IMG/VR virus record: IMGVR_UViG_3300036770_003655
Span: 1 to 22,697 of that record
DNA length: 22,697 nt
Reading direction: 5' to 3' (one strand)
DNA from: a virus
Part shown: piece after piece, positions 926 through 22,655 of the stretch
How positions within the stretch are numbered: the first letter of the stretch is position 1
How the letters are laid out: every line of letters starts with the position of its first letter
Program-made: the position numbers and the translations under genes
The notes under the pieces: model-generated
Database searches by the model: none
What the model was told of the DNA's origin: nothing
What the model saw: only the letters and a program-made list of their open reading frames with translations

Positions 926-1621
926 TCAGTTGGGATTTCTAGTATGTATCAGATACGGATTTGGATTCGTGAACTGTGTAATATCTTCCATGAAAAGAAA
1001 GGTGTTGTGCTTGATGCAAAGCAAACTCATGATGCTTTGATCATGTCGATGGTCTCTGAACTCGGGATAGTTAGGGAGACCCTGTGTATTAGGAAGATCG
1101 GTAATGATCCTAGGATCTTTAGCATACGAAAGCCACTCATCTACAAATGCCAATGAGAATGGTGTTTTCCTACAAACAAACACGCTGGCCATTCTTTGAT
1201 CAGAATCTGTGTACTTGGCTTCGTCCATTCCCATAAGCACAAATGCATCTCTCTTGGTGAATTGCTTGTTCTTTCCACAGACACCGAATGTTGCCACTCC
1301 CTTTTCGCCAATCAAATGCTCCTCAGAAAGAATCCAATTCCACGGGTTTCGCACAAAGTACATACCCGAATCGGTATACATGAGCCAATCGTCTTTGCTC
1401 ATCGACTCCAACTCTTTGCGAATGAGATACGGCTTCCATAGCCAATATCCCGCCCCTCTGCTTTGAGAGAATGTGTATCCATTCTCGGTTACAAACTGCG
1501 GATCCAAGTCCTCCAAGCCGTATGGTTTGGTGCAATCGAATCCATTCTGCAAGGCAGTAGCACAACAATGCTGTTGTGAGTTTTTGTATCTGCCGTGGGC
1601 ATAGTTGATGTGTATCTTCAT
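926..1621 (-). CDS. Glycosyltransferase-like protein with GAGYWLWKP motif
   Basis: A 231-residue protein resembling small glycosyltransferase-like proteins found in polysaccharide clusters. Visible hallmarks are an N-terminal INYA strand, the segment GAGYWLWKP (about 56-64), and YTDSG (about 82-86), which could serve as a DxD-like nucleotide-sugar/metal site. No signal peptide or membrane segment is seen, so it should act in the cytoplasm. It starts 5 bp after the FkbM methyltransferase stop, behind a GAAAGTAAG purine-rich stretch, and its own stop codon TGA forms the first bases of the TGAGG ribosome site of the epimerase gene. Context (epimerase, methyltransferases, other glycosyltransferases) supports a glycan role. 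Acceptor and donor are unknown; the family call is by motif memory, so moderate. Confidence 0.72.
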   Translation of the reverse strand: MKIHINYAHGRYKNSQQHCCATALQNGFDCTKPYGLEDLDPQFVTENGYTFSQSRGAGYWLWKPYLIRKELESMSKDDWLMYTDSGMYFVRNPWNWILSEEHLIGEKGVATFGVCGKNKQFTKRDAFVLMGMDEAKYTDSDQRMASVFVCRKTPFSLAFVDEWLSYAKDPRIITDLPNTQGLPNYPEFRDHRHDQSIMSLLCIKHNTFLFMEDITQFTNPNPYLIHTRNPN

Positions 1622-1626
1622 GTTGC

Positions 1627-2256
1627 TTACTTTCGAATGAAGATCATGTTTTCGGGGGTTCTACCAACAAGGGTGTATCCCGAACCCGTGTAAAAGTGTT
1701 CGACGGGGTAGTCCATTCCAGTATCAATTTCAACACAGATGCACTTGATGTTGTACTTGGACAAATCAAAAGACATAGCCATCATGGAAGACAGCCCCTC
1801 AACATCAATAGACAGCAAATCTATAGAACCCATTTTCCGTATGGCTTCATTCAAAAGAACATCAATTCTAATACCAACCGTGACGATCTTTCTATAGGGA
1901 GGATTGTTCCACACATTTCCTACAGCGACACAATCGTTCTTGCTGAAAGACTCGCTAATGGTGCTGATCTGCGACAACTCAGACTCGTAAAAGTCAAGCA
2001 TCTCCATCTCGTTTCTGTTTGTCCCAGGTGTAACTGCGACATTGAAGAGATGAACTTTGTTGTTTTCTCTATGGAGTTTTAGGATCTTGTCGAAGGCGGC
2101 TGGCGATGGTTCGACCAATACGGCATTCCACCCCCGCTCAATCAAGAGAAGACTGTTGCTGTTTGTCTTTCCATCAAACGCACCGATTTCAACCAAGTTT
2201 CCAACTTCAGGAAAGAGGTTGGCGAACAGCGAATCTTCATTGTTTTGAGAGTACAT
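1627..2256 (-). CDS. FkbM-family SAM-dependent methyltransferase
   Basis: A 209-residue class I methyltransferase of the FkbM type, likely O-methylating a sugar in the glycan made by this cassette. The N-terminus SQNNED is the usual FkbM opening, followed by the SAM-binding strand VEIGAFDGKTNS (about 22-33), an acidic VEPSP at the end of the second strand (about 48-52) and LSIDVEG (about 148-154), where the family has its I-D-V-E-G motif. Start ATG at 2256 follows AAAGGAAATTCTAA, a good ribosome site, and overlaps the end of the preceding GT-B gene by 20 bp, suggesting coupled translation. Length is typical of compact phage and bacterial FkbM proteins. The methylated substrate cannot be inferred. 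Confidence 0.9.
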   Translation of the reverse strand: MYSQNNEDSLFANLFPEVGNLVEIGAFDGKTNSNSLLLIERGWNAVLVEPSPAAFDKILKLHRENNKVHLFNVAVTPGTNRNEMEMLDFYESELSQISTISESFSKNDCVAVGNVWNNPPYRKIVTVGIRIDVLLNEAIRKMGSIDLLSIDVEGLSSMMAMSFDLSKYNIKCICVEIDTGMDYPVEHFYTGSGYTLVGRTPENMIFIRK

Positions 2257-3103
2257 TTAGAATTTCCTTTGCTCTTTCGTCATAGGTGTGCTTTGTCAGA
2301 AACAACTCTCTTCCGTTTTCAGCGATACGCTTCAGAGAAAGAGATGAATCTTCAATCATCCGAATCAACTGCGTTGTCTTGGCGATCAGGTCGCGCTGAT
2401 CCGAGTACATGAAACAGTTCTTGCCATCAACAAATCCCAACGAGTCGTATTGGTAATTGTAATTCGTCAGTAGCACCGTATTGCATGCTAAAGTTTCAAA
2501 TGACCTGTAGTTGATGTCGTTTGCAATGTTCATGTTGAAGTGAATGTGGTATGAGTTGATTGCCTCTACCATAGACTCTCCAATCACAAAGATGTCTTGT
2601 CTGAGACCAAAAATCTGCGAGAGCATATCAACTGCTTGCTTTCGTGGCGCAGTCACATGATTGCCACAGAAGCCAATTCTGTGTGATTTGGTGATCGTGG
2701 ATATGGGTCTAAGAAGAGATGCGTCTGCACAGTTAGGAAGCCATCTGTGGTGCGATTCCTTGACATAATCTTTGGTCGCATGTGCAAGAATGTGGTACTT
2801 ACCATCGCTGAACATTTTCTCATATGGGGATATACCGCGAACATGGGCATCGATGCACCAAATGATCTTGAAAGGTTTGGTAGTCGTGGATAGGTTCGGG
2901 ATCCAATCATCACCATAGTTCTCTAGGTTGATGATGAGATCGAACGAGTTGAAGTCGGGTGGGGTTTGAAAGTTCTCATGTCCCGCTCCCCAAATCACAC
3001 ACTCATGTCCGAGTTTGTGAAAGGAACGCTGTAGACAACAAGACTCTCTAAAGTGGCGGTTTGCATCATGCCGACCGCGCTCTTGAATGATCAGGATGTT
3101 CAT
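2237..3103 (-). CDS. GT-B-fold glycosyltransferase (CgeB/Glyco_trans_1_2-like)
   Basis: About 288 residues with the layout of a GT-B glycosyltransferase. It has an N-terminal Rossmann-like half (NILIIQERG, then DLIINLENYGDD) and a C-terminal half containing RIGFCGNHVTAPRK and the segment NYRSFETLACNTVLLTN. That last pattern (x-R-x-F-E-x-L-A-x-x-x-x-x-L-T) is typical of spore-coat CgeB-like and related glycosyltransferase C-termini. A late TYDERAKEIL matches the usual closing helix. The start is ambiguous: a TTG at 3109 overlaps the upstream stop and an ATG lies at 3103; ATG is chosen although neither has a strong ribosome site. It lies in a run of tightly spaced glycan genes. Sugar specificity is unknown. 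Confidence 0.82.
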   Translation of the reverse strand: MNILIIQERGRHDANRHFRESCCLQRSFHKLGHECVIWGAGHENFQTPPDFNSFDLIINLENYGDDWIPNLSTTTKPFKIIWCIDAHVRGISPYEKMFSDGKYHILAHATKDYVKESHHRWLPNCADASLLRPISTITKSHRIGFCGNHVTAPRKQAVDMLSQIFGLRQDIFVIGESMVEAINSYHIHFNMNIANDINYRSFETLACNTVLLTNYNYQYDSLGFVDGKNCFMYSDQRDLIAKTTQLIRMIEDSSLSLKRIAENGRELFLTKHTYDERAKEILNVLSKQ

Positions 3104-3105
3104 AG

Positions 3106-3753
3106 TCAATACTGTGGGTTGTCGTTCTCGTCGTACACCTGTCCGACAAAGTGTTTAGGGTCTCTTGGAAGTGGAAATGGCTTACGCGCAAAGAATTCGT
3201 CGTGTTCTACAACATCATTTTGTGCGGCAGGCCAAACACTATGCGTGAGAAAATCCTGATCGATGCCAAACAGGGCTGTCTTAGTCAGACCTTTCGCGTA
3301 GTAGTCATCGATAAGTCTTCTAATGTTCCTCAGTTTCTCGCCATGTACACCCCACATCCCGCCACAAAGTGGCGTTCCGTGTTGTGGGTGGTCTCTCATG
3401 GCATGATAGCCACTACCCGAACTGATCCATTCCTGTACAGCCATAGACTCTCTCTGTGTGATCCTAGAGTCAGCATCGCGGAATACAACACAGTCAACAT
3501 CCTGATCTTCGGCGGCATAGAACCTCCAAAACATTGACCAATGGGGTTCTTTGGAAGCACTCAGTTTGACTATATCTGTGTTTGGGAATGAGGACAGTTT
3601 CTCAATTACCGATTCGGGAACAGTATCCACATCACAATAGAAACGACATTTCCATCCCCGATACCAAGTTGCTGCCAGTTGAGCATTCTTGATTGCGCCA
3701 GTTGTGTATTTGGGATTGTTGCCCCAAAGACTGAAAGAAACAACATTCATCAT
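3106..3753 (-). CDS. Glycosyltransferase-like protein with DAD motif (GT-A type)
   Basis: About 215 residues. It opens NVVSFSLWGNNPKYTTGAI, like small GT-A proteins, and carries VVFRDADSR near residue 92, a plausible DxD metal/nucleotide-sugar site. The later CGGMWGVHG and GIDQDFL segments fit the substrate and metal-binding part of such folds. No secretion signal or membrane helix is evident. The chosen start is the first of two adjacent ATGs (3753); it overlaps the methyltransferase stop as ATGA, and a GAAGAAG purine tract lies upstream, so translation is probably coupled. The next gene begins at the stop codon. Function as a sugar transferase is inferred from motif and context; specificity is unknown. 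Confidence 0.75.
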   Translation of the reverse strand: MMNVVSFSLWGNNPKYTTGAIKNAQLAATWYRGWKCRFYCDVDTVPESVIEKLSSFPNTDIVKLSASKEPHWSMFWRFYAAEDQDVDCVVFRDADSRITQRESMAVQEWISSGSGYHAMRDHPQHGTPLCGGMWGVHGEKLRNIRRLIDDYYAKGLTKTALFGIDQDFLTHSVWPAAQNDVVEHDEFFARKPFPLPRDPKHFVGQVYDENDNPQY

Positions 3754-4424
3754 GTTGACTTCTTCATGATAGCAATGCGAGAATAGAAGTGAATCCACTC
3801 TATCCCTGTCTTTCCATCATGACCTTCTGATGGTGCCATATCGATGTCTCTGATAATCGCACCGAAAAACTTATCCATGTCGGCACGGTTGTTGTTGAAC
3901 TCAACATCCTTGTTATAGTGCATCCCAGGCCAACCACCCTTGATGATGCCCTCTTTAAGACTTTCGCCCAAGTAAGAGCATCCCAAGTCTTCCATGATGT
4001 ACAGCCCACCGCGCTTTAGATGTGGGAAAAGCAATTCAAACGATTTGAGGGTTAGAGAGTTTACATGAGATCCGTCATCCAAAACAACATCGAATCCCTC
4101 TCCACCCGCGTCTTGTACGACTTGATTGATGATTTCCGAATCTCCCTGACTGCCGATGAAGATTCGAATCCCATCTGATTGATACTGCTTGCAGCGGGGA
4201 TCGATATCAATCCCATAGATTGTTGCGTTGGGAAAGTACTCCTTCCACATACGATGAGAACAACCATCCCGAACTCCAATCTCAAGAACTTTCAGGGGAA
4301 GGTCACGAATACCATTTAGATACTTGTGGTAGATATCAAGATAACTGGAACCACAGAACTTGTGGTTAGAATCGTGCTTGTCTGTCTGATGCCTCGTACC
4401 AATTTGTTGTAGTGTTTCTCTCAT
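3750..4424 (-). CDS. Class I SAM-dependent methyltransferase (MycE/tetracenomycin-sugar O-methyltransferase-like)
   Basis: About 224 residues. The early segment GTRHQTDKHDSNH, then YLDIYHKYL, then the SAM-binding motif VLEIGVRDGCSH (about 45-56) and YGIDIDP (second strand acidic site) match the sugar-O-methyltransferase group related to macrocin/mycinamicin enzymes. FDVVLDDGSH (about 108-117) and GGLYIMEDLG are also characteristic. The likely role is methylating a sugar hydroxyl of a phage- or host-surface glycan in the cytoplasm. Start ATG at 4424 sits behind AGGTGG and overlaps the upstream glycosyltransferase stop as ATGA; a longer upstream reading (to 4469) lacks that support. Its own stop overlaps the next gene in the same way. 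Substrate unknown. Confidence 0.85.
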   Translation of the reverse strand: MRETLQQIGTRHQTDKHDSNHKFCGSSYLDIYHKYLNGIRDLPLKVLEIGVRDGCSHRMWKEYFPNATIYGIDIDPRCKQYQSDGIRIFIGSQGDSEIINQVVQDAGGEGFDVVLDDGSHVNSLTLKSFELLFPHLKRGGLYIMEDLGCSYLGESLKEGIIKGGWPGMHYNKDVEFNNNRADMDKFFGAIIRDIDMAPSEGHDGKTGIEWIHFYSRIAIMKKST

Positions 4425-5017
4425 CGTGCCACCTGATTGTTGTGTGTTTCTTCGAAAGTCTTGCTGCACTTATAGTTGTAGATTACACCTTCGATCCACT
4501 CTTCCTTCTTGAGGAAGTGGCGAATGCCCATGCTGAAGGAACGATCCTCTCCGCTGTTCCACGGCGGGAACCCAACCTGTACGGCAATCGCCCTGCGGAC
4601 GGCGTTCAGGTGGTTTGGTGGTCGATAGTAGACCTTGCCCTCATGATCATCGATCCATTGGGTGTACCGCAGAGAGTGAATGAAGGGGCGGCTATAGCCG
4701 TCTGAGAAGACGATCTCGCCTGTGAGCGACGAGCAGTCGGGATTCTTGGTCAACGCATTCAGAACCTTTTCGATGTAGTCGGGACTGACCATGTCATCGT
4801 CATCGACAAAGGAAACATACTCGCCCGTGGATTGGGTGAGTAGCATGTTGCGCTTCTGCCCGATGCTCATCTGTCTGTTGTCGGACAGAGACAGCACCTC
4901 CACATTCCGCTTGCCGATCTGATTCGCCAGTTCTCTCTTGAGTTGTTCCAGTTTCGGCTTCCGATCCTCAAGACTAGGAATGAGGATGGAGAGTTTATGC
5001 ATTGGTCGCCAAGACAT
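4421..5017 (-). CDS. GT2 family glycosyltransferase
   Basis: A 198-residue GT-A glycosyltransferase of family 2 type. It begins KLSILIPSLEDRK (first strand and nucleotide loop), has SIGQKRNMLLTQSTGEY (about 52-68), and then FVDDDDMVSPDY (about 70-81), which supplies the DxD metal-binding aspartates. A GEDRSFSM segment near residue 157 fits the ED catalytic-base motif of GT2 enzymes. No transmembrane helices are present, so it is a soluble enzyme. The ATG at 5017 follows GAGGAGATCAAGA and overlaps the 3' end of the preceding glycosyltransferase by 23 bp; the 3' end overlaps the methyltransferase start by 4 bp. Family assignment is firm, substrate unknown. Confidence 0.9.
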   Translation of the reverse strand: MSWRPMHKLSILIPSLEDRKPKLEQLKRELANQIGKRNVEVLSLSDNRQMSIGQKRNMLLTQSTGEYVSFVDDDDMVSPDYIEKVLNALTKNPDCSSLTGEIVFSDGYSRPFIHSLRYTQWIDDHEGKVYYRPPNHLNAVRRAIAVQVGFPPWNSGEDRSFSMGIRHFLKKEEWIEGVIYNYKCSKTFEETHNNQVAR

Positions 5018-5723
5018 TCTTGATCTCCTCGGGGTTCAAATCAAAGTTCTTTGCAAGACGCTCCTGATAGAGCGGCTGATCGTGGGCATACATCTCGGGA
5101 GACTCGTTACGGGCATGCAGGGCATCGGGTGTCGTAGCCCCGACCCATTGGTGCTGAATGATGACATGGTCAATGAACACTACCTTGCCAAGCATCTTTG
5201 CAACATCCGTGAACTCGTTGTCACAGAACACAGACTTGTAGCCTGGATAGTACAAGTAACCAAAGCGTTCGAAATACTTGCGTCCCAAGATGGAAAGTGT
5301 AATCAATCGATTGCCCCCTGAGAAGCCATCGTTGAACCACAGAACACCATCTGTGTCGGGGAAGAACTTTGCCATAGCCCGTGCAATTACATCGTCGTAG
5401 CCCCCGTGAACAGGGATCATGTCATCGGACGCAAGCAGGATTACATCGGGGTTCAGGCGGCGAACAACATCTAGGTCTGCATTGATGGCAGAGATCTTGC
5501 CTGTAGACTTCCCACAGATCGCATGGAGGTTTCCATTCAATTGTGAATTGAGTCTGCTGAACAGAGACCACATATTGTCGTTATTCATCGACGGATCGTC
5601 GTGGTCAAATGACACTACGAAATGAACATCATGCATTCCCGACAAGAAGTTGATGTACTTGTCCAATACGGACACAAACTTCTGCGGTCGCCCCCGCGTG
5701 GGGAACTTAATCACCATTCTCAT
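4995..5723 (-). CDS. Glycosyltransferase, GT2-like (GT-A fold)
   Basis: About 242 residues. It starts MVIKFPTRGRPQKF, a common opening of phage and marine GT-A proteins, followed by VVSFDHDDPSM, a GKSTGKISAIN segment and VILLASDDMIPVHGGYDD, which gives the DxD-like site. FNDGFSGG and the later FCDNEFTD provide further acidic residues typical of the fold. The ATG at 5723 has a GGAG site seven bases upstream; the open frame extends further upstream (to 5756) but without that signal. It overlaps the tail of the conserved gene after uvsX by 17 bp, so the glycan cassette is tied transcriptionally to the recombination genes. The sugar donor is unknown. Confidence 0.85.
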   Translation of the reverse strand: MRMVIKFPTRGRPQKFVSVLDKYINFLSGMHDVHFVVSFDHDDPSMNNDNMWSLFSRLNSQLNGNLHAICGKSTGKISAINADLDVVRRLNPDVILLASDDMIPVHGGYDDVIARAMAKFFPDTDGVLWFNDGFSGGNRLITLSILGRKYFERFGYLYYPGYKSVFCDNEFTDVAKMLGKVVFIDHVIIQHQWVGATTPDALHARNESPEMYAHDQPLYQERLAKNFDLNPEEIKNVLATNA

Positions 5724-6228
5724 TTTCGTCTCCTTCTCCATCATCGATGAACTCAACTACGGCATTGCCCGAATAGTCGGCAGCGTACTGCTTTGCACGG
5801 CTGTAAAGGGACGCATCGACTTCGCGGACATACTTGATGAAGTTGAGGGCGAAGTTCTGAATTGCCTCATCAACCAACTGCTGCTCTTCTTCAGTCATCT
5901 CCTCAGCATCGTCTTCCTGAGACTGATGCTCGTCTCCGTAGTCGCGGTCATCATGACCGATATCAATGTCGCACTCTTCGCTCAGTTCCCTCAGGGTGCA
6001 GCGAAACACCATTGCGGGAGTGGACTCGCCAAGATATGCGCCCAAGGTATTGACCTCAAGCCATTCAACAGCCTCGTCTTCTTCCATGCCGTCACGATCC
6101 ATGAGGATCTGCATACAACGACCGTAGTCATAGATTGCAATCGGTACGGTCTGTCCGTGGCGACGAAGCATGCCCATGAACGCCTTCTCAAACCCGTCGA
6201 ACAGGATTGGCTTGGGATCACTCTGCAC
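5707..6228 (-). CDS. Conserved phage protein downstream of uvsX (FDGFEKAFMG...YDYGRCMQIL type), acidic C-terminus
   Basis: About 173 residues. The first 75 residues belong to a small protein type common in phages and plasmids: PILFDGFEKAFMGM, then a cis V-P-I-A-I-Y-D-Y stretch, CMQILMDRDGM, EEDEAVEWLEVN and LGAYLGESTPA. No biochemical function is established to my knowledge. The rest is an added strongly acidic tail rich in D and E, probably extended or coiled. The start is GTG at 6228, preceded by GAGGAGGTGG, overlapping the uvsX stop by 11 bp; the longer frame to 6282 would lie inside uvsX and is less likely. Its position right after uvsX suggests early expression alongside recombination, though it may simply be co-transcribed. 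Confidence 0.8.
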   Translation of the reverse strand: MQSDPKPILFDGFEKAFMGMLRRHGQTVPIAIYDYGRCMQILMDRDGMEEDEAVEWLEVNTLGAYLGESTPAMVFRCTLRELSEECDIDIGHDDRDYGDEHQSQEDDAEEMTEEEQQLVDEAIQNFALNFIKYVREVDASLYSRAKQYAADYSGNAVVEFIDDGEGDENENGD

Positions 6229-8077: not shown

Positions 8078-10618
8078 TCAGGCAAACAGACCTTCCAACG
8101 ACCCTTCTTCCTTCACCTTCCACCCAATGCAGTTGAGGATGTTGGAGAGCGGTTCGATGAATGCCTTCTCAAACTGCGTCTCCTTGTCGATGAACGCATC
8201 AAGACCGAACTCGTCGGGGAAAGTAGCGGGGAATGCCAAGACCTTCTCTCGCACGGGGTTCGGCACCTTCAGTTCGACATACTTGATCTTCTCGCCGTTG
8301 CGGATCAGGGGATACTTCTTGGACAGCCCCATCTTCTTGATCCAATGGTTATAGACCAACGAACCCTTGACATGCATGGGTGTGCCCTTCTTGTAGATGC
8401 TTGCGGCATCGGCGTAGTCATCCAAGCCGTTGCAGCCACGGGGGAACGCGATGTCGTAGACAGGAAGCCCCGTAAACTCGTCGTGGAACCTCTCAACGAA
8501 AGAGTGCAATGCACCCTCGTCGGCGGTCAGGATCAACTTGATCGCCTCCTTGAGCCGTGTACGGACGATCTGCGGGGTGGACGAACGGGCGGTTTCGATG
8601 CCCATGATCTTCAGGTCAGGATCGTCCATGTAGACATTGTCCTCGCCCAACTGCACGGCAAGCATGTACCGCTTCTTGGCGACGAATACTCCCTTTGATG
8701 CGATGGCTTCGCGCTTCATCGACATGCGATTGGCGTATGCATTCATTCGCTGCGCCAACTGCTCGTACCACTTGTTGATCTTCGGGGAGATCACATCGTT
8801 GCAGAACTTGTCCACCATCTCTGTGGTCTTCTTCTTGTCCTTCTTAGGGAACGCCGTCTTGACGAGAGGCCCGAGCCGCAGATAGACGGAGTCGGTGTCC
8901 ACGGCGATGACATAGTCCTCGCCCTCCGTGCCGCAAGCCTTGTTGAGGAAGCGGTTCAGATTGTCCTCTGCCCAACGAATCGACAACTGCCCCGACACGG
9001 TGATTGCCTCTGCCATGCTGAGGTTGTAGTAGCGGCAGTACTGATTGCCCAAGGCACCGAACGCGCTGTTCAACTGCACCTTACGCACCAACTGGAAGTT
9101 ATGGTACTTCGACACTTCCTTCTTCTTGGTGGCGACCGTGGCGGGGTCAGCCTTGGTGCCCTCGGTCTTGATCCATCCCTTCGCCTCAAGCATTCGCTTC
9201 TTGTATTCCTTGCGTTGGGCGTACATGGTGTCCATGAGTTCGGGGAGGAAGCCACGGATATCCCTGCGGTACATGGTGCCGTTCGCAGCCACGCAGATGT
9301 CCTTCTCCTTTGACATGGATAGGAATCCCTCTAGGGAGGGGTCTTCTCCTGAGATGAGGGAGTCCACGGAGACGGCGGGGATCCTGTCCGACAGAATCGT
9401 CTCGGGGGAGAGATTGTACTGCATGATCAGGTGGGGGTATAGGGAGTCAAGGTCGAAAGAGACCACCCACTCATGCTCACCGATGATCGGGGGCTTGACA
9501 TACGCACCTTCGAACTGGTTGTCCTTGTCGTTGCCCGTCTTTGGCGGGATCGCCACCTTCTTGGTACGAAGATGGTTGTAGATGATGCTGTCCCACATGC
9601 GTACCTGTGAGAAGACATCCCCAAAGTTCCCTCTCGCGCTGTACGCAAGAGCCTGTGCCAGTTCGATCAGGCGCAACTTGTCTTCCAACTTGCAGACAAG
9701 CAGGGTGTCCTTGATGTTATACTCCATGAACCGTTGGAAGTCCTTGCGATACAACTCGGTCAGGGTGCCGACATCGGAGTAGTCCATCTTGCTCTCGCCC
9801 AACTCCACGGAAGCGATGTGCTGCAACTTGTAGGACTCGGGGGTCACAAAGGTGAACTTCTTGTACAAGTCCATGTAGTCAAGCACGGTGATGCCTGAGA
9901 AGTCATACACCATGTTCTTGCGATCCATGACATACACCTCGCGGGAGCGATACTCGCCCCACGGGGACAGCCGCTTTGCCGACTTGCTGCCAAGCACCCG
10001 TTCGATGCGGCGGCACAGATAGGGCATGTCGAACATGTTGACATTCCACCCCGTCACGATGTCGCAGTCCAAGGATTCCCATGTGTCCAAGAAGCCATGG
10101 AGCAACTGCGCCTCATCGACATAGCGATGTGCGGTCACGCCTTCGGGAGCCGTGAAATCACCCAAGCCGAAAGCATGGATTTCGTTGCCTTGTGCGATAG
10201 TGATCGCGTTTACCTTCTCGGTTGCCTCCTCGGGGGTGGCAAACCCGTTCTCGCTCTCCACCTCAATGTCGATGTACGCCACTCGGATCAGAGTGGGGTC
10301 GTACTCCAGTTCGCCCTCGCTACCGTAGTTCTCGGCAATGAACTGGTACTGCGATTCGATGTCGCCGTAGACGGTGAAGCCTTCGACATCCTGATACTTC
10401 TTGATGAACTCCCGCGCTTCGAACATGTTCTCAAAGTCAACAGGATCGACCCTGTTGCCGTCGATGGTGTGCCACGATGTGGGCTTCACCTTCTTGGTCG
10501 GGACGAACAGGGTGGGGCGAAAGGTCAGCGACTCATGCACACGCTTGCCGTGCTTGTCATAGCCACGGTGCAGAAGTCTGCCGCCCTTTGTAACGACATT
10601 GGTGTAGAAGGGAGTCAT
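8078..10618 (-). CDS. 43: DNA polymerase, family B, T4 gp43 type
   Basis: An 846-residue replicative polymerase with proofreading exonuclease, near T4's 898. The exonuclease motifs are YIDIEVES (Exo I, D117/E119), TGWNVNMFDMPY (Exo II, D197) and YNIKD (Exo III, Y300/D304). The polymerase motifs are SFDLDSLYPHLIMQ (motif A, D389), KVQLNSAFG (motif B, K513) and VDTDSVYL (motif C, D574 and D576). Metal ligands and key residues are all present, so it should be active. The C-terminus ends GSLEGLFA, resembling the clamp-binding tail of T4-type polymerases, which dock on gp45. The ATG at 10618 overlaps the stop of the HNH gene as ATGA, so its translation may be coupled to that of the endonuclease. 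Confidence 0.98.
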   Translation of the reverse strand: MTPFYTNVVTKGGRLLHRGYDKHGKRVHESLTFRPTLFVPTKKVKPTSWHTIDGNRVDPVDFENMFEAREFIKKYQDVEGFTVYGDIESQYQFIAENYGSEGELEYDPTLIRVAYIDIEVESENGFATPEEATEKVNAITIAQGNEIHAFGLGDFTAPEGVTAHRYVDEAQLLHGFLDTWESLDCDIVTGWNVNMFDMPYLCRRIERVLGSKSAKRLSPWGEYRSREVYVMDRKNMVYDFSGITVLDYMDLYKKFTFVTPESYKLQHIASVELGESKMDYSDVGTLTELYRKDFQRFMEYNIKDTLLVCKLEDKLRLIELAQALAYSARGNFGDVFSQVRMWDSIIYNHLRTKKVAIPPKTGNDKDNQFEGAYVKPPIIGEHEWVVSFDLDSLYPHLIMQYNLSPETILSDRIPAVSVDSLISGEDPSLEGFLSMSKEKDICVAANGTMYRRDIRGFLPELMDTMYAQRKEYKKRMLEAKGWIKTEGTKADPATVATKKKEVSKYHNFQLVRKVQLNSAFGALGNQYCRYYNLSMAEAITVSGQLSIRWAEDNLNRFLNKACGTEGEDYVIAVDTDSVYLRLGPLVKTAFPKKDKKKTTEMVDKFCNDVISPKINKWYEQLAQRMNAYANRMSMKREAIASKGVFVAKKRYMLAVQLGEDNVYMDDPDLKIMGIETARSSTPQIVRTRLKEAIKLILTADEGALHSFVERFHDEFTGLPVYDIAFPRGCNGLDDYADAASIYKKGTPMHVKGSLVYNHWIKKMGLSKKYPLIRNGEKIKYVELKVPNPVREKVLAFPATFPDEFGLDAFIDKETQFEKAFIEPLSNILNCIGWKVKEEGSLEGLFA

Positions 10619-11340
10619 TCCATCAAATCCTCTAGGGTTGACTTGGTCGGAAGGGAGAGTTTGATCTGCTGATCATCGATCCGAATCTCGTCAACTGAAA
10701 TACCCAAGCCCTCTGCGAGTTGATGGACGAACTCCCATGCTCGTTCGGGACTAACTCTCTCATGATAGAGCATGAAGTGTTCGTATGCAAGATCAATCGC
10801 CTCGGGAAGGAGTTTGGCTTGTTTTGATTCGTTCTCTCTTCTCTCTAGTATTCTCAGATTGATTGGGTGGTGAATGCCACCATGAACAATCGGAAGAATG
10901 TGATCGATGTGATACTCTCCTCCTGTTTCTTTTTGGAGTTCTAGGCGAGTTTGCTCCATCAAGAACAGTTTCTTCTGTTCGCTGACAGTCAAACGAACAG
11001 ACGCATTTTTCTTTTTGCATCTTCGTCTTCTGCTTCTTTCGATTACATGTTCACGATTTCGTTCTACCCAAGCCTTATTTGTCGCTGCTGCTCGTTCACG
11101 ATTTCGTTCTCTCCAAGCCTTTACTGTTAGCAATCGTCGTTCACGATTTCGTTCTACCCAAGCCTTGTCTGTCGCTGCTTTTCGTTCACGATTTCGTTCT
11201 GCCCAAGCCTTTACTGTTAGCAATCGTCGTTCGCGGTTGCGTTCATACCAAGCATTACATTCTGCACGAACTCGTTCACGATTGCGTTCGCGCCAAGCCT
11301 TGACTGTCGCCTTTTGTTTTTCTTTGTCCTTGTACGCCAT
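10615..11340 (-). CDS. HNH endonuclease with six N-terminal 15-residue repeats
   Basis: A 241-residue protein. Residues 14-103 are six tandem 15-residue units of the form KAWxERNRERxxxTx, very rich in Arg and Glu and expected to be helical and DNA- or RNA-contacting. After an RRRRCKKK linker comes an HNH nuclease core YHIDHILPI...GGIHHPINLRIL (about 143-165), with the conserved His-Asp-His, Asn and downstream KQAKLLP. A C-terminal domain of about 70 residues follows. It may be a homing-type endonuclease lodged before gene 43. The start used is ATG 11340, eight bases after a GGAG; a GTG at 11346 overlapping the groES-like stop is the alternative. The stop overlaps the gp43 start as ATGA. Confidence 0.88.
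   Translation of the reverse strand: MAYKDKEKQKATVKAWRERNRERVRAECNAWYERNRERRLLTVKAWAERNRERKAATDKAWVERNRERRLLTVKAWRERNRERAAATNKAWVERNREHVIERSRRRRCKKKNASVRLTVSEQKKLFLMEQTRLELQKETGGEYHIDHILPIVHGGIHHPINLRILERRENESKQAKLLPEAIDLAYEHFMLYHERVSPERAWEFVHQLAEGLGISVDEIRIDDQQIKLSLPTKSTLEDLME
11032..11301 (-). repeat. Six tandem 45-bp coding repeats in the HNH gene
   Basis: The DNA has a clear 45-bp period: the segment reading ttcacgatttcgttct or close variants on the plus strand begins at 11050, 11095, 11140, 11185, 11230 and 11275. Units alternate between two subtypes (RRLLTV and xAAT endings), giving a 90-bp higher order typical of expansion by unequal exchange or slippage. All units stay in frame. Confidence 0.95.
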
Positions 11341-11342
11341 CC

Positions 11343-11600
11343 TCACCGCTCCACAGCAAGGATGTTGTCCTGATGAACAATGTCAAACCCACCGTAGGCA
11401 TTGCCTCTACCCTTGGTGATGTCCCACAGCACCTTGTCGCCTATCTGAATGTCCTCGGTGACCTTCTCGCCCACGCTGACCACCTCGCTCCAAATGTTTG
11501 GATTGGTGATCTTCTCCGTGTAGATGATGCCCGACTCGCTCTTCTTTTCCTTGCCCAAGCCGATGGTCTTTACCGCTACCCATTTACCAATAGTCTTCAT
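11343..11600 (-). CDS. GroES-like co-chaperonin (Cpn10; functional analogue of T4 gp31)
   Basis: An 85-residue protein with a Cpn10 layout: KWVAVKTIGLGKEKKSESGI (strand plus mobile-loop region), a VVSVGEKV strand, the IQIGDKVLWD strand and a closing DNILAVER, matching the GDxV and ILA(I/V) endings of GroES. It would cap the host GroEL chamber during folding of phage proteins, as gp31 does for the T4 capsid protein. The stretch between SESGI and the VVSVG strand is about the length expected for a mobile loop plus first barrel strands. ATG 11600 follows GAGGAGAGTGAC and lies one base after the stop of the Mom-like gene; a longer upstream frame has no support. I judge it a full-length gene. Confidence 0.85.
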   Translation of the reverse strand: MKTIGKWVAVKTIGLGKEKKSESGIIYTEKITNPNIWSEVVSVGEKVTEDIQIGDKVLWDITKGRGNAYGGFDIVHQDNILAVER

Positions 11601-11601: not shown

Positions 11602-12525
11602 TCACTCTCCTCTTTGTTTAGGGTACGGTAGTACCTTGTTACGGGCTTCGAACTCTCTGCGGAGTTTCTTCGTCTCAGCCTTGGTTGCACCAAGTACATA
11701 AGCATACTTGTGCTTCGACGGCATGTCAACGGAAACCGCAGACGATTGTTTCTTCTTGCTATGTGATCTCAGCGCGGCTTCGATGTTGGGCGGGACATTG
11801 TCCCAAAGCATTCCCTTGTTGTCGCACCAAGACTTGTCCCATTCGATTGCCAACTCTTTGGCATACTTCTTGTATGCGCTTCTTTGCCTGAAGAAGCGAT
11901 CAGAGACGATCTTGCCTGTGTACGGGTTCACATATCTTGTAGTTGTGCCCGATTCATTGCCAAGATAGTAAAAGTTGCAAGCCTGATAGATCGTGCCGAT
12001 CTCCTTAGCAGTCGGGTCGGAGTATGCGGTGAACAACCGATACTGCGTGTTCTTCACCATCCACCCGATGCTCCACATGAGGAAAGACGATGCGAGGTTC
12101 TTGGGACTCCATGAGATGCATGCGCCCCTGCTGATCAGCCGCTCCACCTTCTTCGTGTCATCGCCAAGCAACTTGCTGAACGCATTCGGAAGATTCATGA
12201 GAGTCACCCCCGCGAGGATGTCCTTGCCCATGAGACCTTGATTCGGGTCGCGGTAGTATGCACCAAACCAATGAGTCGTATACTGAGAAAGATTGCCTAG
12301 CCACTCATGCCGTTCGATGAAGGCTGTAGCCTCCTGTCGATCACGCTCCGTGGTCAGGGGACGGAAATGAAAGTCCGTGGCGGTGAGCGTCTTGATTCGC
12401 TCGGGATCGATGCCACTCTCAGCAATGTCCTGTTGAAGATTGTTTACGCGGATATCGTACTGCCAACAATGATCCTTGTCGTAGTTCTTGGCTCGTTCGA
12501 TGATGTCAACCGCGCTCTTCTTCAT
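11602..12525 (-). CDS. Mom-like GNAT-fold protein (putative DNA adenine modification enzyme)
   Basis: A 307-residue protein whose middle part (about 55-190) resembles Mom-type GNAT enzymes, which in phage Mu turn adenine into a carbamoylmethyl-type adenine that blocks restriction. Recognisable pieces are ERHEWLGNLSQYTTHWFGAY (about 71-90), ILAGVTLMNLPN (about 103-114), an ERLISRGACISWSPKNLASS run (about 128-147) and the end pattern FTAYSDPTAKEIGTIYQACNFYYLG (about 165-189). That end pattern is the Mom-like YxD...G.iYQA.N(W/F)...G signature. The C-terminal ~115 residues are basic and possibly DNA-binding. ATG 12525 overlaps the ABC/GNAT stop as ATGA, so the two are translated together. The domain call comes from motif recognition; an alternative is another GNAT acyltransferase with a non-DNA substrate. 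Confidence 0.72.
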   Translation of the reverse strand: MKKSAVDIIERAKNYDKDHCWQYDIRVNNLQQDIAESGIDPERIKTLTATDFHFRPLTTERDRQEATAFIERHEWLGNLSQYTTHWFGAYYRDPNQGLMGKDILAGVTLMNLPNAFSKLLGDDTKKVERLISRGACISWSPKNLASSFLMWSIGWMVKNTQYRLFTAYSDPTAKEIGTIYQACNFYYLGNESGTTTRYVNPYTGKIVSDRFFRQRSAYKKYAKELAIEWDKSWCDNKGMLWDNVPPNIEAALRSHSKKKQSSAVSVDMPSKHKYAYVLGATKAETKKLRREFEARNKVLPYPKQRGE

Positions 12526-13601
12526 CTCTTGCCGATGTATTCATGAGAGTAGCAGAAGCGGTGGGCATGCTTCATCTTGTAGCCCTCCTCGTATGTGCTT
12601 CTGCCTTTGCTGTAGTCCTCGCGTGTGCGCTCATTCTTGCTCGTAGGCTTCCACAGAGCAGATCGATTCCTGTACTCGCCCATGCGCGGGTGCGCGGTCT
12701 TGGAGAAGTACCGACATCCCTGTCCGACGAAGATCTCTGCCGTGGCATCGGAGATACGAACACCTAAGCCAAGCCCTTGATAGTCAGGCAGCACAACCGT
12801 CCTGTGACCGCGCCATGCGTTCTTCAGGTTGCCGTTCGGGAATGAAAGGGCAGCGGAGAATCCAACAGGGGTGCCGTCCCAAACGGCGATCCAACATCTT
12901 GCACCTTTATTGATGTTTCCGTCGAGATAGTGATGGTTGCGGAACATTGCCCACGCTTCGGTGGAGCAAGGAAGCATCTCCAAGACAATCTCAGGTCGCC
13001 TTTCAGACCCCCTTGCGGTCAACTTACCGCTGCTAGTGTCGAACACCCAATCGGGACGAAGCCATTCGATGATGTCATAATGGCACGAAGCAAACACCAA
13101 TCCCTTGATGTTCTTCTGATCGACATAGCGGCGAATAGAGTTGGCACATGACTTGGCGACATTCCTGTCCACCACGGAGGTGAACTCATCGATCACGGCT
13201 CCGTCCCGCAGCCGTCTAGCCAAGTCTGCACGGAACTTCTCGCCCGTGGACAGGACATGGTACGGGCGCATCCACGCGGGGATGGAGTTGAACCCGACCG
13301 CAGACAGCCGCTCACGGGCATCCACGGCGTTGTTGAAGTGGGAGCAGACAGCCAACTCAGGATCCCATGTAATGGTCTCCTCGCTGCCAAACTGCTTGAG
13401 GATGGTTGACTTGCCCGTTCCCGATGGGCCTACGATGAGACCGATGCCAAACCCCTCGGGTAGAGTGGGCATGGTCGGTGGAACAAAGGTGCTTGTCCCC
13501 GTGAACGGATAGTCAAAAGCCGATGACAGTTCCTTGACCGTCTCATCGACCTTGACCTTGCTCACTAGTTCAACTTGCTTCGGCTCATCGAATAGACTCA
13601 T
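12522..13601 (-). CDS. ABC-type ATPase fused to GNAT acetyltransferase domain (COG2401-like)
   Basis: A 359-residue two-domain protein. The N-terminal ATPase has Walker A GPSGTGKST (about 58-66), an ABC signature-like LSTGEKFRADLARR (about 117-130), Walker B GAVIDEF (D138, E139) and a switch histidine in ASCHYD (H174). The whole unit is compact and lacks a membrane domain, so it is not a transporter. The C-terminal GNAT region (about 210-359) has a VGFSAALSFP strand and VVLPDYQGLGLGVRISD (about 269-285), whose QGLGLG is the acetyl-CoA pyrophosphate loop, and ends in TAHPRMGEYRNRS. This architecture matches COG2401, whose function is not established. ATGA overlaps join it to the nucleotidyltransferase upstream and the Mom-like gene downstream. 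Confidence 0.88.
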   Translation of the reverse strand: MSLFDEPKQVELVSKVKVDETVKELSSAFDYPFTGTSTFVPPTMPTLPEGFGIGLIVGPSGTGKSTILKQFGSEETITWDPELAVCSHFNNAVDARERLSAVGFNSIPAWMRPYHVLSTGEKFRADLARRLRDGAVIDEFTSVVDRNVAKSCANSIRRYVDQKNIKGLVFASCHYDIIEWLRPDWVFDTSSGKLTARGSERRPEIVLEMLPCSTEAWAMFRNHHYLDGNINKGARCWIAVWDGTPVGFSAALSFPNGNLKNAWRGHRTVVLPDYQGLGLGVRISDATAEIFVGQGCRYFSKTAHPRMGEYRNRSALWKPTSKNERTREDYSKGRSTYEEGYKMKHAHRFCYSHEYIGKR

Positions 13602-14026
13602 GATTCATGCCACTTCTTAAGAATCCAACTAGAGGAGTTCTTCTTGTCCTCCCCGCCGACACCGAAGACGAACGAAAGGTTCGGGTCATCGATGTCCATC
13701 TCAGGGATGTTCTCCTTCGTCCGATCACCTCCGTTTGCAAACACGATGTGTGCATCGGGGTACAACTGACGAACCGTGATGATAGCAGCCTTCGCGCTGT
13801 TGTCATCATCATTGAAGGCAACAATGTCATCCACCACGCAAAGAGAGGATACGATTGTCGCTCGTTCGTGCAGGGGCATGAATGGCTTTCCCTTCTTTCG
13901 GGTCAGCCAATCATCTGTGTTCAAACCTACGACAAGGCGGTCGCCAAGTTCTCGCGCCGCCTTGAAGTATGCAATGTGTCCGCTGTGGAGGGGATCGAAC
14001 CCTCCCGTCACCAATACGACTTTCAT
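13598..14026 (-). CDS. HxGH-superfamily nucleotidyltransferase (RfaE2/cytidylyltransferase-like)
   Basis: A 142-residue single-domain nucleotidyltransferase that would transfer a nucleotide (AMP or CMP) from NTP to a phosphorylated small molecule. It has TGGFDPLHSGHIAYF with the HSGH signature (H14, H17), a GLNTDDWLTRKKG segment, MPLHERATIVSSL, and NGGDRTKENIPE, which resembles the GDR..ENIP stretch of heptose-phosphate adenylyltransferases. Length is normal for a stand-alone domain. ATG 14026 has AAGGA upstream and overlaps the transglycosylase stop as ATGA; its stop overlaps the ABC/GNAT gene likewise. It could supply an activated sugar or cofactor to the glycan cassette or to the adjacent modification candidates. 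Substrate not determinable here. Confidence 0.88.
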   Translation of the reverse strand: MKVVLVTGGFDPLHSGHIAYFKAARELGDRLVVGLNTDDWLTRKKGKPFMPLHERATIVSSLCVVDDIVAFNDDDNSAKAAIITVRQLYPDAHIVFANGGDRTKENIPEMDIDDPNLSFVFGVGGEDKKNSSSWILKKWHES

Positions 14027-14481
14027 TCAAGTTCCTTCTTGATCTTGTTCCAATACTTCGTGGTGTTGTCCCACGCCTTCTTTTCCTTCGGCTTCTTGCT
14101 GTGCTGCTTCTTCAGGATGTTGCACCCGCCGTTATGAATTCGTGCAAGTTGCTCAACAGTTGCATTGGCGGGTGCGTATCGCTTGAGGTAGGCACGGACA
14201 ACTCGCTTGGCGTACTCAGGATCGAAGCAGTCCTTATAGGATCCACCGAGCGTCTTGTCGAAATCAACTGCATCCTGCCAGTAGGCCCGATGGATTTGGT
14301 AGATACCAATCGCATCGCCTCCGTCCCCAACAGCCTTCGGATCGTTGCGCGACTCCACAAGTGCCAATGCAGGAAGCAGTCTGTCGATGTTGCTTCCGAG
14401 ATCGGCATTAGCAAGTCTGCACGGGAGGAAGAGGGTCGTAAAGAGGATGACCGACAAGAGGATTCGACGGGGCTGATTCAT
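14023..14481 (-). CDS. Secreted lytic transglycosylase-like cell-wall enzyme (SLT/lysozyme fold)
   Basis: About 152 residues. The N-terminus MNQPRRILLSVILFTTLF is a typical Sec signal peptide with a plausible cleavage after ANA (residue ~26). The mature part has ALALVESRNDPKAVGD (catalytic Glu in VES, about E43), then GIYQIHRAYWQDA, the GLxQI/GIYQI motif of SLT-type lysozyme-fold enzymes, and later RYAPANATVEQLARIHNGG, matching the A-R-x-H-N-G-G segment of this fold. It would cleave murein in the periplasm and may act in lysis or exclusion. ATG 14481 follows GGAGCAAAAGC; an earlier in-frame start (14544) lacks such a site. The first 74 bp overlap the end of the DUF1599 gene. The basic C-terminus ends in KKELE. 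Confidence 0.85.
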   Translation of the reverse strand: MNQPRRILLSVILFTTLFLPCRLANADLGSNIDRLLPALALVESRNDPKAVGDGGDAIGIYQIHRAYWQDAVDFDKTLGGSYKDCFDPEYAKRVVRAYLKRYAPANATVEQLARIHNGGCNILKKQHSKKPKEKKAWDNTTKYWNKIKKELE

Positions 14482-14803
14482 GCTTTTGCTCCTTCTTCGA
14501 CTGAAGAAATGCATAGAAGAGGACTGAATAATTGATGAGATCAAGGCAAGTGTCCTCTACAGACTCGTCCTTGACTTCAAGGGTTCCCGACTCCACGAAG
14601 GAAGACAGCCGCGACATCTTGTCAGTCATGCGGACAAGCATCCCCGCTTCCGTCTTGCAGATGCCCATGGCTTCACAACGGGTGAAGTTAGCGAACGGTT
14701 CGTCACCGCCCTTTCCTGCGTAGTCGGCGTTCTTGCGCTGCATCAAGGAGAAAGCCTTGTTGCATAGTGCCTTGTGGTGGGCAAGCAGTTCGTCACGATC
14801 CAT
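14408..14803 (-). CDS. DUF1599 / Nmad1-like (nucleotide modification associated domain 1) protein
   Basis: A 131-residue helical protein with the pattern of the DUF1599/Nmad1 group, which is related in appearance to MazG-type helical proteins and recurs in phages beside nucleotide-modification genes. Key pieces are LMQRKNADYAGKGGDEPFANF (about 20-40), MLVRMTDKMSRLSSF (about 55-69) and the acidic VEDTCLDLINYSVLFYAFLQ (about 82-101), which has the E-x-x-D helix expected to bind metal. The last ~25 residues (Pro-rich) are unique and are encoded where the transglycosylase signal peptide overlaps. ATG 14803 follows AGGAAAGG and lies 3 bp from the dUTPase stop. Its biochemical role is not established; dUTPase adjacency suggests nucleotide-pool or DNA-modification work. 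Confidence 0.8.
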   Translation of the reverse strand: MDRDELLAHHKALCNKAFSLMQRKNADYAGKGGDEPFANFTRCEAMGICKTEAGMLVRMTDKMSRLSSFVESGTLEVKDESVEDTCLDLINYSVLFYAFLQSKKEQKHESAPSNPLVGHPLYDPLPPVQTC

Positions 14804-14805: not shown

Positions 14806-15345
14806 TCAAGCCTTTCCTGTTGAGCCGAAGCCGCCGCTACGGTCGGTCTTACCCTTAACTTCATCGGCAATCTGCACGATGTTCGTGTAGATTTTCTCGA
14901 CAATTTCCCCTTGGCAGATGCGGTCTCCATGGGTTATGCGGACATTCACGCTGCTCGTATTGGTTACGGGCACCATGAGTTGGTGAGTGTAATCGGAGTC
15001 GATAACACCTTCACAGTTCGAAAGCATCAGACCCCCCTTGAGAGCAAGACCTGAGCGCATGTGTAGGCGCACGGAGTACCCCTCGGGGATGTCCAATACG
15101 AGTTGGGTTGGGAGGAGGGCGCGTTCGTTCGGTCTGATAATCACAGAGGCATCCTTGATGCCCTGCACATCGTCTACGAACGCTAGAGACTTGTAGTTGA
15201 CGCTGTTCGACCCCCACATGTCAACCTCCCGCTTTCCTGCGGGTAGGCACACGCGCACATCAAAGCATGCGGAGTGTTCGGTTGCGTAGGCGGGAAGGAA
15301 CGCATCGGGGTGCAACTTATAGCACCCAAGGGTCACTTGCTTCAT
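14806..15345 (-). CDS. dut: dUTPase (deoxyuridine 5'-triphosphate nucleotidohydrolase)
   Basis: A 179-residue trimeric-type dUTPase that hydrolyses dUTP to dUMP, limiting uracil incorporation and feeding dTMP synthesis. The five family motifs are present: ACFDVRV (motif 1), RSGLALKGG (motif 2, about 97-105), GVIDSDYT (motif 3, about 113-120), GDRICQ (motif 4) and the C-terminal RSGGFGSTG (motif 5, about 169-177). An insertion of roughly 25 residues lies after motif 1 (about 36-62), making it longer than the usual ~150. ATG 15345 is preceded by AGTGAGATCTATACC and, about 30 bp further, a sigma70-like promoter. The DUF1599 gene follows directly, so both are likely early and co-transcribed. Confidence 0.96.
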   Translation of the reverse strand: MKQVTLGCYKLHPDAFLPAYATEHSACFDVRVCLPAGKREVDMWGSNSVNYKSLAFVDDVQGIKDASVIIRPNERALLPTQLVLDIPEGYSVRLHMRSGLALKGGLMLSNCEGVIDSDYTHQLMVPVTNTSSVNVRITHGDRICQGEIVEKIYTNIVQIADEVKGKTDRSGGFGSTGKA

Positions 15346-15373
15346 GGTATAGATCTCACTTTGCATTACGAAG

Positions 15374-15402
15374 ATTGTACTACGAACTTGACTCGCCGTC
15401 AA
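15374..15402 (-). promoter_or_regulatory. Sigma70-like early promoter for dUTPase
   Basis: Minus strand TTGACG (15402-15397), 17-bp spacer, TACAAT (15379-15374), about 29 bp before the dUTPase ATG. The -35 box lies within the last codons of regA. Confidence 0.72.
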
Positions 15403-15811
15403 GGGGTTTCTTGCGAACCCCAATACGATACTTCGGGATCAGTTCCCAATCTTTCTTCTCTCCGAAGGGGAGGATCTTGAAGTGGGAGATCGGGCAGACA
15501 GGCTCCTTGGTGACCGTGGGGTTCACGATCTTTACAAGTCCCCATTGCTCCAACAGGTTGACGATGGTGTTGCGCCGTGCCTTGTCGGAATCGCTGAAGT
15601 CGTTAGCCAAGCCATCAAGCATGAATAGTTCCTTGAAGTGGACTATGTAATACTTGCCTCTCTTGTGGAGGATGTGGCAGGACTGATAGAGTTTGCGTTC
15701 AGTCTTGGAGGAGATGCCAATGCGGGTCAGCGTCTCCTTTACCTTCAGAAAATTATCTGCCGAAGGAAGGGTTACTTCGACTAGGTTGTTCACAATGTCT
15801 TCGGTGTTCAC
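15380..15811 (-). CDS. regA: RegA, translational repressor
   Basis: About 143 residues, a homologue of T4 RegA (122 residues), which binds early mRNAs at their start sites and blocks translation, including those of clamp and loader genes. The resemblance is strong along its length: FLKVKETLTRIGI, LYQSCHILHKRGKYYIVHFKELF, ARRNTIVNLLEQWGLVKIV and WELIPKYRIG. It carries an N-terminal extension of about ten residues and a C-terminal KKPLDGESSS tail. No in-frame ATG exists; a GTG at 15811 lies eight bases after GGAAAG and is preferred, with TTG at 15817 as the alternative. The overlapping out-of-frame ATG at 15827 is probably not used. It follows gp62 as in T4. Confidence 0.93.
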   Translation of the reverse strand: MNTEDIVNNLVEVTLPSADNFLKVKETLTRIGISSKTERKLYQSCHILHKRGKYYIVHFKELFMLDGLANDFSDSDKARRNTIVNLLEQWGLVKIVNPTVTKEPVCPISHFKILPFGEKKDWELIPKYRIGVRKKPLDGESSS

Positions 15812-19428: not shown

Positions 19429-19463
19429 ATTCGCAAACATCATTCTCTAGATTTTTCTGAGAA

Positions 19464-19538
19464 TGACCCTGAGGGGATTCGAACCCCTGTTACATCCGTG
19501 AAAGGGATGTGTCCTAGACCGACTAGACGACAGGGCCA
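19464..19538 (-). tRNA. tRNA-Glu (anticodon TTC)
   Basis: A 75-nt cloverleaf: acceptor stem TGGCCCT/AGGGTCA with a G-T pair, anticodon stem CATCC/GGATG around loop CTTTCAC (anticodon TTC, reads GAA/GAG), and T loop TTCGAAT. CCA is not encoded. It is separated from the main tRNA cluster, between the protease gene and a hairpin-bounded intergenic region. Confidence 0.95.
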
Positions 19539-22002: not shown

Positions 22003-22074
22003 AGCCATCTGCGGGAATCGAACCCGCGATCTGCTCATTACAAGTGAGCCGCATTACCACTCTGCTAAGATGGC
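22003..22074 (-). tRNA. tRNA-Thr (anticodon TGT)
   Basis: A 72-nt cloverleaf with acceptor GCCATCT/AGATGGC, anticodon stem GCTCA/TGAGC around loop CTTGTAA (TGT), and T loop TTCGATT. CCA not encoded. Confidence 0.93.
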
Positions 22075-22081
22075 GTGTGAA

Positions 22082-22163
<82 letters not shown>

Positions 22164-22168
22164 GAACA

Positions 22169-22239
22169 TTCCCTCGTATGGATTCGAACCATAACTAGAA
22201 GAATCAAAATCTCCTGTGCTACCGTTACACAACAAGGGA
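22169..22239 (-). tRNA. tRNA-Gln (anticodon TTG)
   Basis: A 71-nt cloverleaf: acceptor TCCCTTG/CGAGGGA, D-arm GTGTAACGGTAGCAC, anticodon stem GGAGA/TCTTC with loop TTTTGAT (TTG), T stem TATGG/CCATA. Confidence 0.92.
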
Positions 22240-22240
22240 A

Positions 22241-22312
22241 CTGGCTCGGAAGGATTCGAACCTTCAACCGTCCCGTTAACAGCGGGATGCACTACCGTTG
22301 TGCTACGAGCCA
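22241..22312 (-). tRNA. tRNA-Asn (anticodon GTT)
   Basis: A 72-nt cloverleaf: acceptor TGGCTCG/CGAGCCA, discriminator G, anticodon stem TCCCG/CGGGA with loop CTGTTAA (GTT). Only one base separates it from tRNA-Gln. Confidence 0.93.
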
Positions 22313-22315
22313 AGG

Positions 22316-22388
22316 GGTGACTGATGGGATTCGAACCCACGACATGAGGGATCACAACCCTCTGTTCTACCAACTGAACTACAGTCAC
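22316..22388 (-). tRNA. tRNA-His (anticodon GTG)
   Basis: A 73-nt cloverleaf: acceptor GTGACTG/CAGTCAC with C73, anticodon stem GAGGG/CCCTC and loop TTGTGAT (GTG). The base before position 1 is T, so the usual G-1 of histidine tRNAs is not encoded in the obvious place. Confidence 0.92.
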
Positions 22389-22390
22389 AA

Positions 22391-22477
22391 CGGACAGAGA
22401 GGGATTCGAACCCCCGATACAGTTACCCGTATACAGCATTTCCAATGCTGCTCCTTCAACCACTCGGACACCTGTCC
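22391..22477 (-). tRNA. tRNA-Ser (anticodon GGA)
   Basis: An 87-nt class II tRNA: acceptor GGACAGG/TCTGTCC, discriminator G, anticodon stem CAGCA/TGCTG with loop TTGGAAA (GGA) and a long variable arm, as expected for serine. Confidence 0.93.
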
Positions 22478-22491
22478 AACACAACACCGAA

Positions 22492-22579
22492 AGCGTAGCG
22501 GAGGACTTGCACCTCTGTTGCTCTGTATCAGATCACCCCTTGCAAGTAGGCAACCCTAGCAGCCTGATGCTGACTACGC
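22492..22579 (-). other. Class II tRNA-like element with non-canonical anticodon loop
   Basis: Between tRNA-Ser and tRNA-Gly the minus strand folds like an 88-nt class II tRNA: acceptor GCGTAGT/GCTACGC (last pair T-G), a D-like stem GCA/TGC with a 6-base loop, a variable-arm hairpin TCTG-ATA-CAGA, and a T-like arm with loop TGCAAGT. The anticodon arm is TTGC-CTACTT-GCAA with only four pairs and a six-base loop, so no anticodon can be assigned. It may be a decayed or unusual Leu/Ser-type tRNA, or a tRNA-like RNA. Confidence 0.5.
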
Positions 22580-22583
22580 GAAA

Positions 22584-22655
22584 AGCGAACGATGGGATTC
22601 GAACCCACGACCATCGGTTTGGAAAACCGAGACTCTACCGCTGAGTTACATTCGC
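22584..22655 (-). tRNA. tRNA-Gly (anticodon TCC)
   Basis: A 72-nt cloverleaf: acceptor GCGAATG/CGTTCGC, discriminator T as usual for glycine, anticodon stem TCGGT/ACCGA with loop TTTCCAA (TCC). Confidence 0.93.

Follow-up and report, generated by a model that had tools for sequence, protein, structure and literature searches.

A candidate anti-restriction island with Mom-family and ABC-ATPase/GNAT genes in the replication cluster of a T4-like phage

DNA that carries Mom-type modification is resistant to many restriction enzymes, and PMC7824862 describes the Mom enzyme as acting by N6-adenine acyl transfer. The same paper, citing Iyer 2013, presents a second group of proteins in which an ABC ATPase is coupled to a GNAT domain, with acylation of DNA bases as the predicted activity and phage pT24 as the example. 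Both the Mom family and this printed prediction for ABC-ATPase/GNAT fusions (ABC/GNAT) were known beforehand. Here we describe a locus in which genes of the two families adjoin each other, on the IMG/VR virus record IMGVR_UViG_3300036770_003655 (positions 1 to 22,697; this whole 22,697-nt stretch is called the window). With a probability of roughly 0.6, we read the locus as an anti-restriction island of exchangeable content, in which Mom and ABC/GNAT would be two DNA-modifying GNATs that act independently and the nucleotidyltransferase (NTase) an unrelated passenger.

Mom and the ABC/GNAT fusion

An earlier sequence-only reading had proposed a Mom-like gene in the window, and both profile and structure searches bore this out. 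The protein matched Pfam PF25680 with 47 bits (curated cut-off 27.1; E=3.1e-12; residues 62-222) and the PHROG family phrog_1384, annotated 'Mom-like', at 5e-16. When the AlphaFold model (pLDDT 88, built from 24 aligned sequences) was compared to the PDB with Foldseek, the top match was phage Mu Mom (8BV8_A, E=2.6e-8; 8BV8_B, 1.1e-7), with a TM of 0.66-0.71 depending on the target, and the next GNAT was nearly four orders of magnitude worse. Direct sequence search of the PDB with Mom gave no match, so that only the fold search returned one. Mu Mom D149, which we take to be a functional residue, aligns with D170, and Mu S124 aligns with S146; both positions are invariant in the 24 relatives. 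The PDB title of 8BV8 gives S124A as an inactive mutant. The window gene is therefore a member of the Mom family. Because of the profile match, the Mu Mom fold match and the invariant S124 and D149 equivalents, DNA modification is its likely function, and by family it is near-certain to be a DNA modifier. By analogy with Mu, its target would most likely be adenine N6. Vibrio phage 501E54-1, a cultured phage, has a Mom gene with 62% identity.

The neighboring gene encodes the fusion of an ABC ATPase and a GNAT that had been read from the sequence, with matches to the GNAT profile PF00583 (7e-8), to the ABC P-loop and to phrog_11143 (4e-111). Its predicted structure is a confident two-domain model, with the ABC part at about residues 50-200 and the GNAT part at about 207-320. 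In alignments of 18 and 34 sequences, the Walker A, signature, Walker B, D-loop and H-loop motifs were all conserved, as was the acyl-CoA motif R-x-V-x-x-P-x-x-x-G-x-G of the GNAT; in the window protein, K64 belongs to Walker A and G276 and G278 to the GNAT part. The protein is 40% identical to one from Tenacibaculum phage pT24 over residues 51-358 (E=1e-64), a search match that may be a different protein from the accession cited in the paper. The cultured Aeromonas phage PX29 also has an ABC/GNAT, with 50% identity. PADLOC gave short matches to the ATPase part only, the best being mad3, and a literature search for the term COG2401 found no paper.

Genome loci of the ABC/GNAT family, many of which resemble prophages, have a recurrent context. 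A ParB-like gene lies directly upstream in 38/61 of them and a terminase gene no more than four genes downstream in 32/61; this ParB-like partner is our own, unpublished observation from these loci. The ParB-like proteins match ParB families as well as the N-terminal part of phrog_498, which is annotated as a DNA methyltransferase. The motifs, this context and the published prediction together point to a putative ATP-dependent DNA-base acyltransferase that probably acts on DNA. To what was predicted in print, the ParB- and terminase-linked position elsewhere and the exchange with a methyltransferase gene described below would add new support for an action on DNA.

Other arrangements around ABC/GNAT genes were also seen. 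Mainly planctomycete loci (L184-L263, e.g. L197, L209, L238), apparently prophages, carry genes in a recurring order: ParB-like, ABC/GNAT, small terminase, large terminase, portal-like. A formyltransferase-domain gene (PF00551) directly follows ABC/GNAT in Pseudomonas phage Komp_PAO1_1 and in a Porphyromonas phage, the latter near the record's end (L101:4917-6646, L102:4863-6466), and may hint at a formyl donor. In phage Jace (L094:4459-6538), ABC/GNAT stands after a ParB-like gene and before a gene for an aspartate decarboxylase (PF02261, 2e-33).

A slot with exchangeable modification genes

Related phages differ in the modification genes of one slot, which is bounded by the SLT-like gene on one side and by the GroES-like/polB genes on the other. 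In 29 loci this slot carries Mom with an N6/N4 DNA methylase (PF01555, 2e-53) and without ABC/GNAT, and 25 of these 29 also have an AdoMet_dc-family gene. Eight loci (five contigs, three of them counted twice) have ABC/GNAT with Mom, all without the methylase. ABC/GNAT is in the slot without Mom in L077, L078, L086 and L087, and also in L123 and L162. No PF01555 methylase was found anywhere in three relatives with Mom and ABC/GNAT (G001, a 168-kb relative, G096 and G003, shorter), and a methylase match was present in 6/7 sampled Mom siblings without ABC/GNAT, one of the six falling below the cut-off. This pattern is suggestive of ABC/GNAT trading places with a DNA methylase.

The Mom gene itself is also exchanged. 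In L006 and L008 its allele has been replaced, with 66-79% DNA identity to the window over most of its length (window 12450-11701), and most of the adjoining ABC/GNAT is 95-98% identical in DNA and 98-99% in protein. Such gene exchange in the slot is as expected under pressure from varied host restriction.

ABC/GNAT was found on 4/36 Mom contigs, two of the four from the window's clade, with a fifth match excluded from the count as weak and partial (E=4e-4). Mom was found on 3/34 ABC/GNAT contigs, and in two of the three the matching frame is interrupted by a stop; most contigs in these counts are fragments. Neither gene occurred in 25 T4-like control contigs selected by NTase. From these numbers, Mom and ABC/GNAT travel separately, with some tendency to stack in the same phage. 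The sequence-only reading had proposed a survey of NTase, ABC/GNAT and Mom in other phages and named absence of co-occurrence as counting against it; outside the window's clade the trio was mostly not found together.

In L022 (6001-8266) and its siblings L015, L019-L025 and L041, Mom, AdoMet_dc (PF02675, 7e-14) and the methylase (PF01555) are consecutive, and in L022 the AdoMet_dc and methylase genes overlap by 4 bases. An AdoMet decarboxylase that makes an aminopropyl donor for DNA was considered and rejected, since the methylase-free G001 has the decarboxylase placed elsewhere; for the same reason, the link to the methylase may be synteny alone. A further reason comes from PMC10407285: homologues of SpeD in phages include ornithine and arginine decarboxylases.

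The nucleotidyltransferase and the surrounding replication cluster

The window covers part of a T4-like replication cluster. Read along the minus strand, the order is gp45, gp44, gp62, RegA, dUTPase, Nmad1-like, SLT/lysozyme-like, NTase, ABC/GNAT, Mom, GroES-like, HNH, DNA polymerase B (polB), deacetylase and UvsX, where the names gp45, gp44, gp62, polB and UvsX were assigned from sequence (Table 1).

Table 1. Features of the island and its borders in the window (ORF, open reading frame)
Feature	Position	Strand	Evidence
Mom-family GNAT DNA-modification protein, 307 aa	11602..12525	(-)	Pfam and PHROG profiles, fold, residues
ABC-ATPase/GNAT fusion, 359 aa	12522..13601	(-)	PF00583, ABC P-loop, phrog_11143
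HxGH nucleotidyltransferase (NTase), RfaE-C/TagD-like, 142 aa	13598..14026	(-)	PF01467, phrog_7878
SLT/lysozyme-like protein	14023..14487, ORF up to 14544	(-)	PF05497 3e-9
Nmad1/DUF1599-like protein	14408..14803	(-)	phrog_1485; PF07659 sub-threshold
dUTPase (ORF), upstream border gene of island	14806..15423	(-)	
GroES/Cpn10-like small protein, downstream border of variable slot	11343..11600, start 11600; longer ORF to 11729	(-)	

The NTase belongs to the HxGH family, as had been read from the sequence (CTP_transf_like PF01467, 3e-14; phrog_7878). It is a cytidylyl/adenylyltransferase that falls between RfaE domain II and glycerol-3-phosphate cytidylyltransferase, below the equivalog level for both (82.6 vs 181.5 bits and 47.8 vs 165.4 bits, respectively). 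Judged from its sequence, it probably nucleotidylates a sugar- or alcohol-phosphate, giving a nucleotide-sugar or polyol. A part for NTase in a common module was rejected, as the gene is cleanly gone from L002, which has ~95% DNA identity to the window and keeps ABC/GNAT and Mom, and as its relatives occur without either of them. In L002 the SLT-like gene overlaps ABC/GNAT directly by an exact ATGA. Among the 80 viral loci closest to NTase, UvsX is nearby in 50/80 and Mom or ABC/GNAT in 1/80, this one from the window's own clade, and the cyanophage relatives sit between polB and uvsX. NTase is thus probably a separate T4-like gene, a passenger not obligatory for Mom and ABC/GNAT.

The order, strand and ATGA overlaps of NTase, ABC/GNAT and Mom (11602-14026, minus strand) were as originally read, with overlaps of Mom and ABC/GNAT at 12522-12525 and of ABC/GNAT and NTase at 13598-13601. 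Their use as a sign that the three proteins act together did not hold up: 4-base overlaps occur at 7/16 cluster junctions examined (gp44/gp62, gp62/next, SLT/NTase, NTase/ABC, ABC/Mom, HSP10/HNH and HNH/polB), which makes them general in the operon and no marker of a module. The Nmad1-like and dUTPase genes that had been placed just upstream are present there, with the conserved, previously unlisted SLT/lysozyme-like gene standing between Nmad1 and NTase and joined to NTase by a further ATGA. In related loci, Nmad1 and dUTPase keep their position whichever modification genes come next, and they are therefore replication-cluster genes rather than island-specific ones. The Nmad1 assignment itself is tentative, with a match to phrog_1485 (E=5e-18) and one to Pfam PF07659 that, at 23.4 bits, falls below the cut-off of 25.

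Several features lie outside the island. The HNH gene that separates polB from the GroES-like gene (window 10615-11346) contains a 45/90-bp tandem repeat at 11049-11307; it is missing from that place in L002, L003 and L008, and is for this reason probably a mobile homing endonuclease. Seven tRNA genes are clustered at window 22003-22655, with a separate tRNA-Glu at 19463-19538. At window 926-5756, genes resembling glycosyltransferases and genes for FkbM methyltransferases follow one another, possibly for glycosylation of the surface or the virion.

Alternative readings and known systems

In the reading we prefer, the replication genes of a T4-like phage would enclose a variable anti-restriction island. 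Mom would put a group derived from acyl-CoA on DNA bases, and the ABC-ATPase part of ABC/GNAT may use ATP to engage or remodel DNA while its GNAT part would transfer an acyl group onto a base amine. The two would be parallel enzymes rather than successive steps of one pathway and, singly or jointly, could shield phage DNA against host restriction. NTase would be a passenger from T4-like phages and would probably supply glycosylation with an activated sugar or polyol. If ABC/GNAT were an ATP-driven acyltransferase for bases of the genome that Mom also modifies, and perhaps for the very bases that Mom targets, the phage would carry a new base with an acylated or composite hypermodification; we rate this as rather unlikely.

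Several observations weigh against a pair of DNA-modifying GNATs exchanged under restriction. The chemistry of Mom is unsettled in the literature found. In hhalign profile comparison, the GNAT half of ABC/GNAT showed no supported homology to Mom (probability 0.8%, E=0.072, non-significant). The PDB fold matches of ABC/GNAT are ordinary transporter-type ABC ATPases, no ParB-like partner is present among the window's neighboring genes, and the known substrates of GNATs extend to proteins and small molecules, so that DNA is a putative substrate. As to the slot, ABC/GNAT and the methylase are both present in L077/L078 and in L162, the loci belong to one phage family and through shared ancestry are non-independent, and some contigs end inside the slot; because of these exceptions, cut-off contigs and shared ancestry, the exchange is given as suggestive rather than as a statistical test.

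The ABC/GNAT protein might instead act on a host or phage protein such as RNA polymerase, terminase or the ribosome, with its ABC domain working as the switch. Acetylation of proteins is common among GNATs (PMC7824862 names phiKMV Rac), the best PDB sequence matches of the ATPase part include the ribosome factors RLI/ABCE and EttA, and ABC/GNAT is linked to terminase genes. A protein target is a minority possibility that we take seriously, set against the ParB-like partner's kinship with a phage family whose annotation is DNA methyltransferase, the methylase exchange in the slot and the base-modification prediction of PMC7824862. ABC/GNAT and Mom could also treat one and the same base, either successively or as a complex and with no part for NTase, to give a composite hypermodification, as they are adjacent throughout the window's clade and both occur, non-adjacent, on a few distant contigs (L044, L052, L109, L142, L164) compared to 0/25 controls. 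We consider this arrangement quite improbable: each gene is usually alone, and ABC/GNAT replaces Mom in the slot of L077, L086, L087 and L123, which suggests alternatives rather than partners. The swapped, ~80% identical Mom allele of L006 and L008 beside an ABC/GNAT with 98-99% protein identity likewise argues against tight co-evolution.

The pathway originally proposed has NTase activating a small molecule, which ABC/GNAT would process or acylate and Mom would attach to DNA. It accounts for three genes that are consecutive in L003, L004, L006 and L008 and, with their ATGA overlaps, in the window. It is nonetheless very improbable given that L002 lacks NTase and keeps the other two genes, that NTase relatives lie mostly by UvsX, that ABC/GNAT and Mom are mostly apart and that 4-bp overlaps are general in the cluster.

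The slot offers natural controls, as it includes relatives with ABC/GNAT and Mom, with Mom and methylase, or with ABC/GNAT and no Mom, together with one close relative in which NTase is the only gene of the group missing and two with a replaced Mom allele. These would let mass spectrometry decide the function of the ABC/GNAT family, which is a predicted DNA modifier and occurs widely among phages and prophages.

The tRNA/rRNA cytidine acetyltransferases TmcA/Kre33 also combine an ATPase and a GNAT in one chain and acylate an exocyclic base amine. They may serve as a working analogy for ABC/GNAT; the two are not homologous as wholes, with a helicase-like ATPase and RNA substrate in TmcA/Kre33 compared to an ABC-type motor and proposed DNA substrate here. 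The T4-like phage HxGH NTases (phrog_7878) of S-SSM7 and P-TIM68 are 50-55% identical to the window NTase over the whole protein but, unlike it, are flanked by polB and uvsX, with neither Mom nor ABC/GNAT. The window ABC/GNAT protein matches pT24 of the family of Iyer et al. with identical domain order, and differs in being joined to Mom and in having no ParB-like partner. Phage Mu Mom (NP_050657, 8BV8, PF25680) is likewise phage-encoded and has a GNAT-family fold, is the best structural match and shares S124 and D149 equivalents that are invariant in relatives of the window protein. The window Mom has 307 aa compared to 241 aa in Mu, with about 22% identity and an extra N-terminal region, and no com gene was seen adjoining it. 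It lies in a replication cluster, whereas in Mu, a transposable phage, the gene is at the right end.

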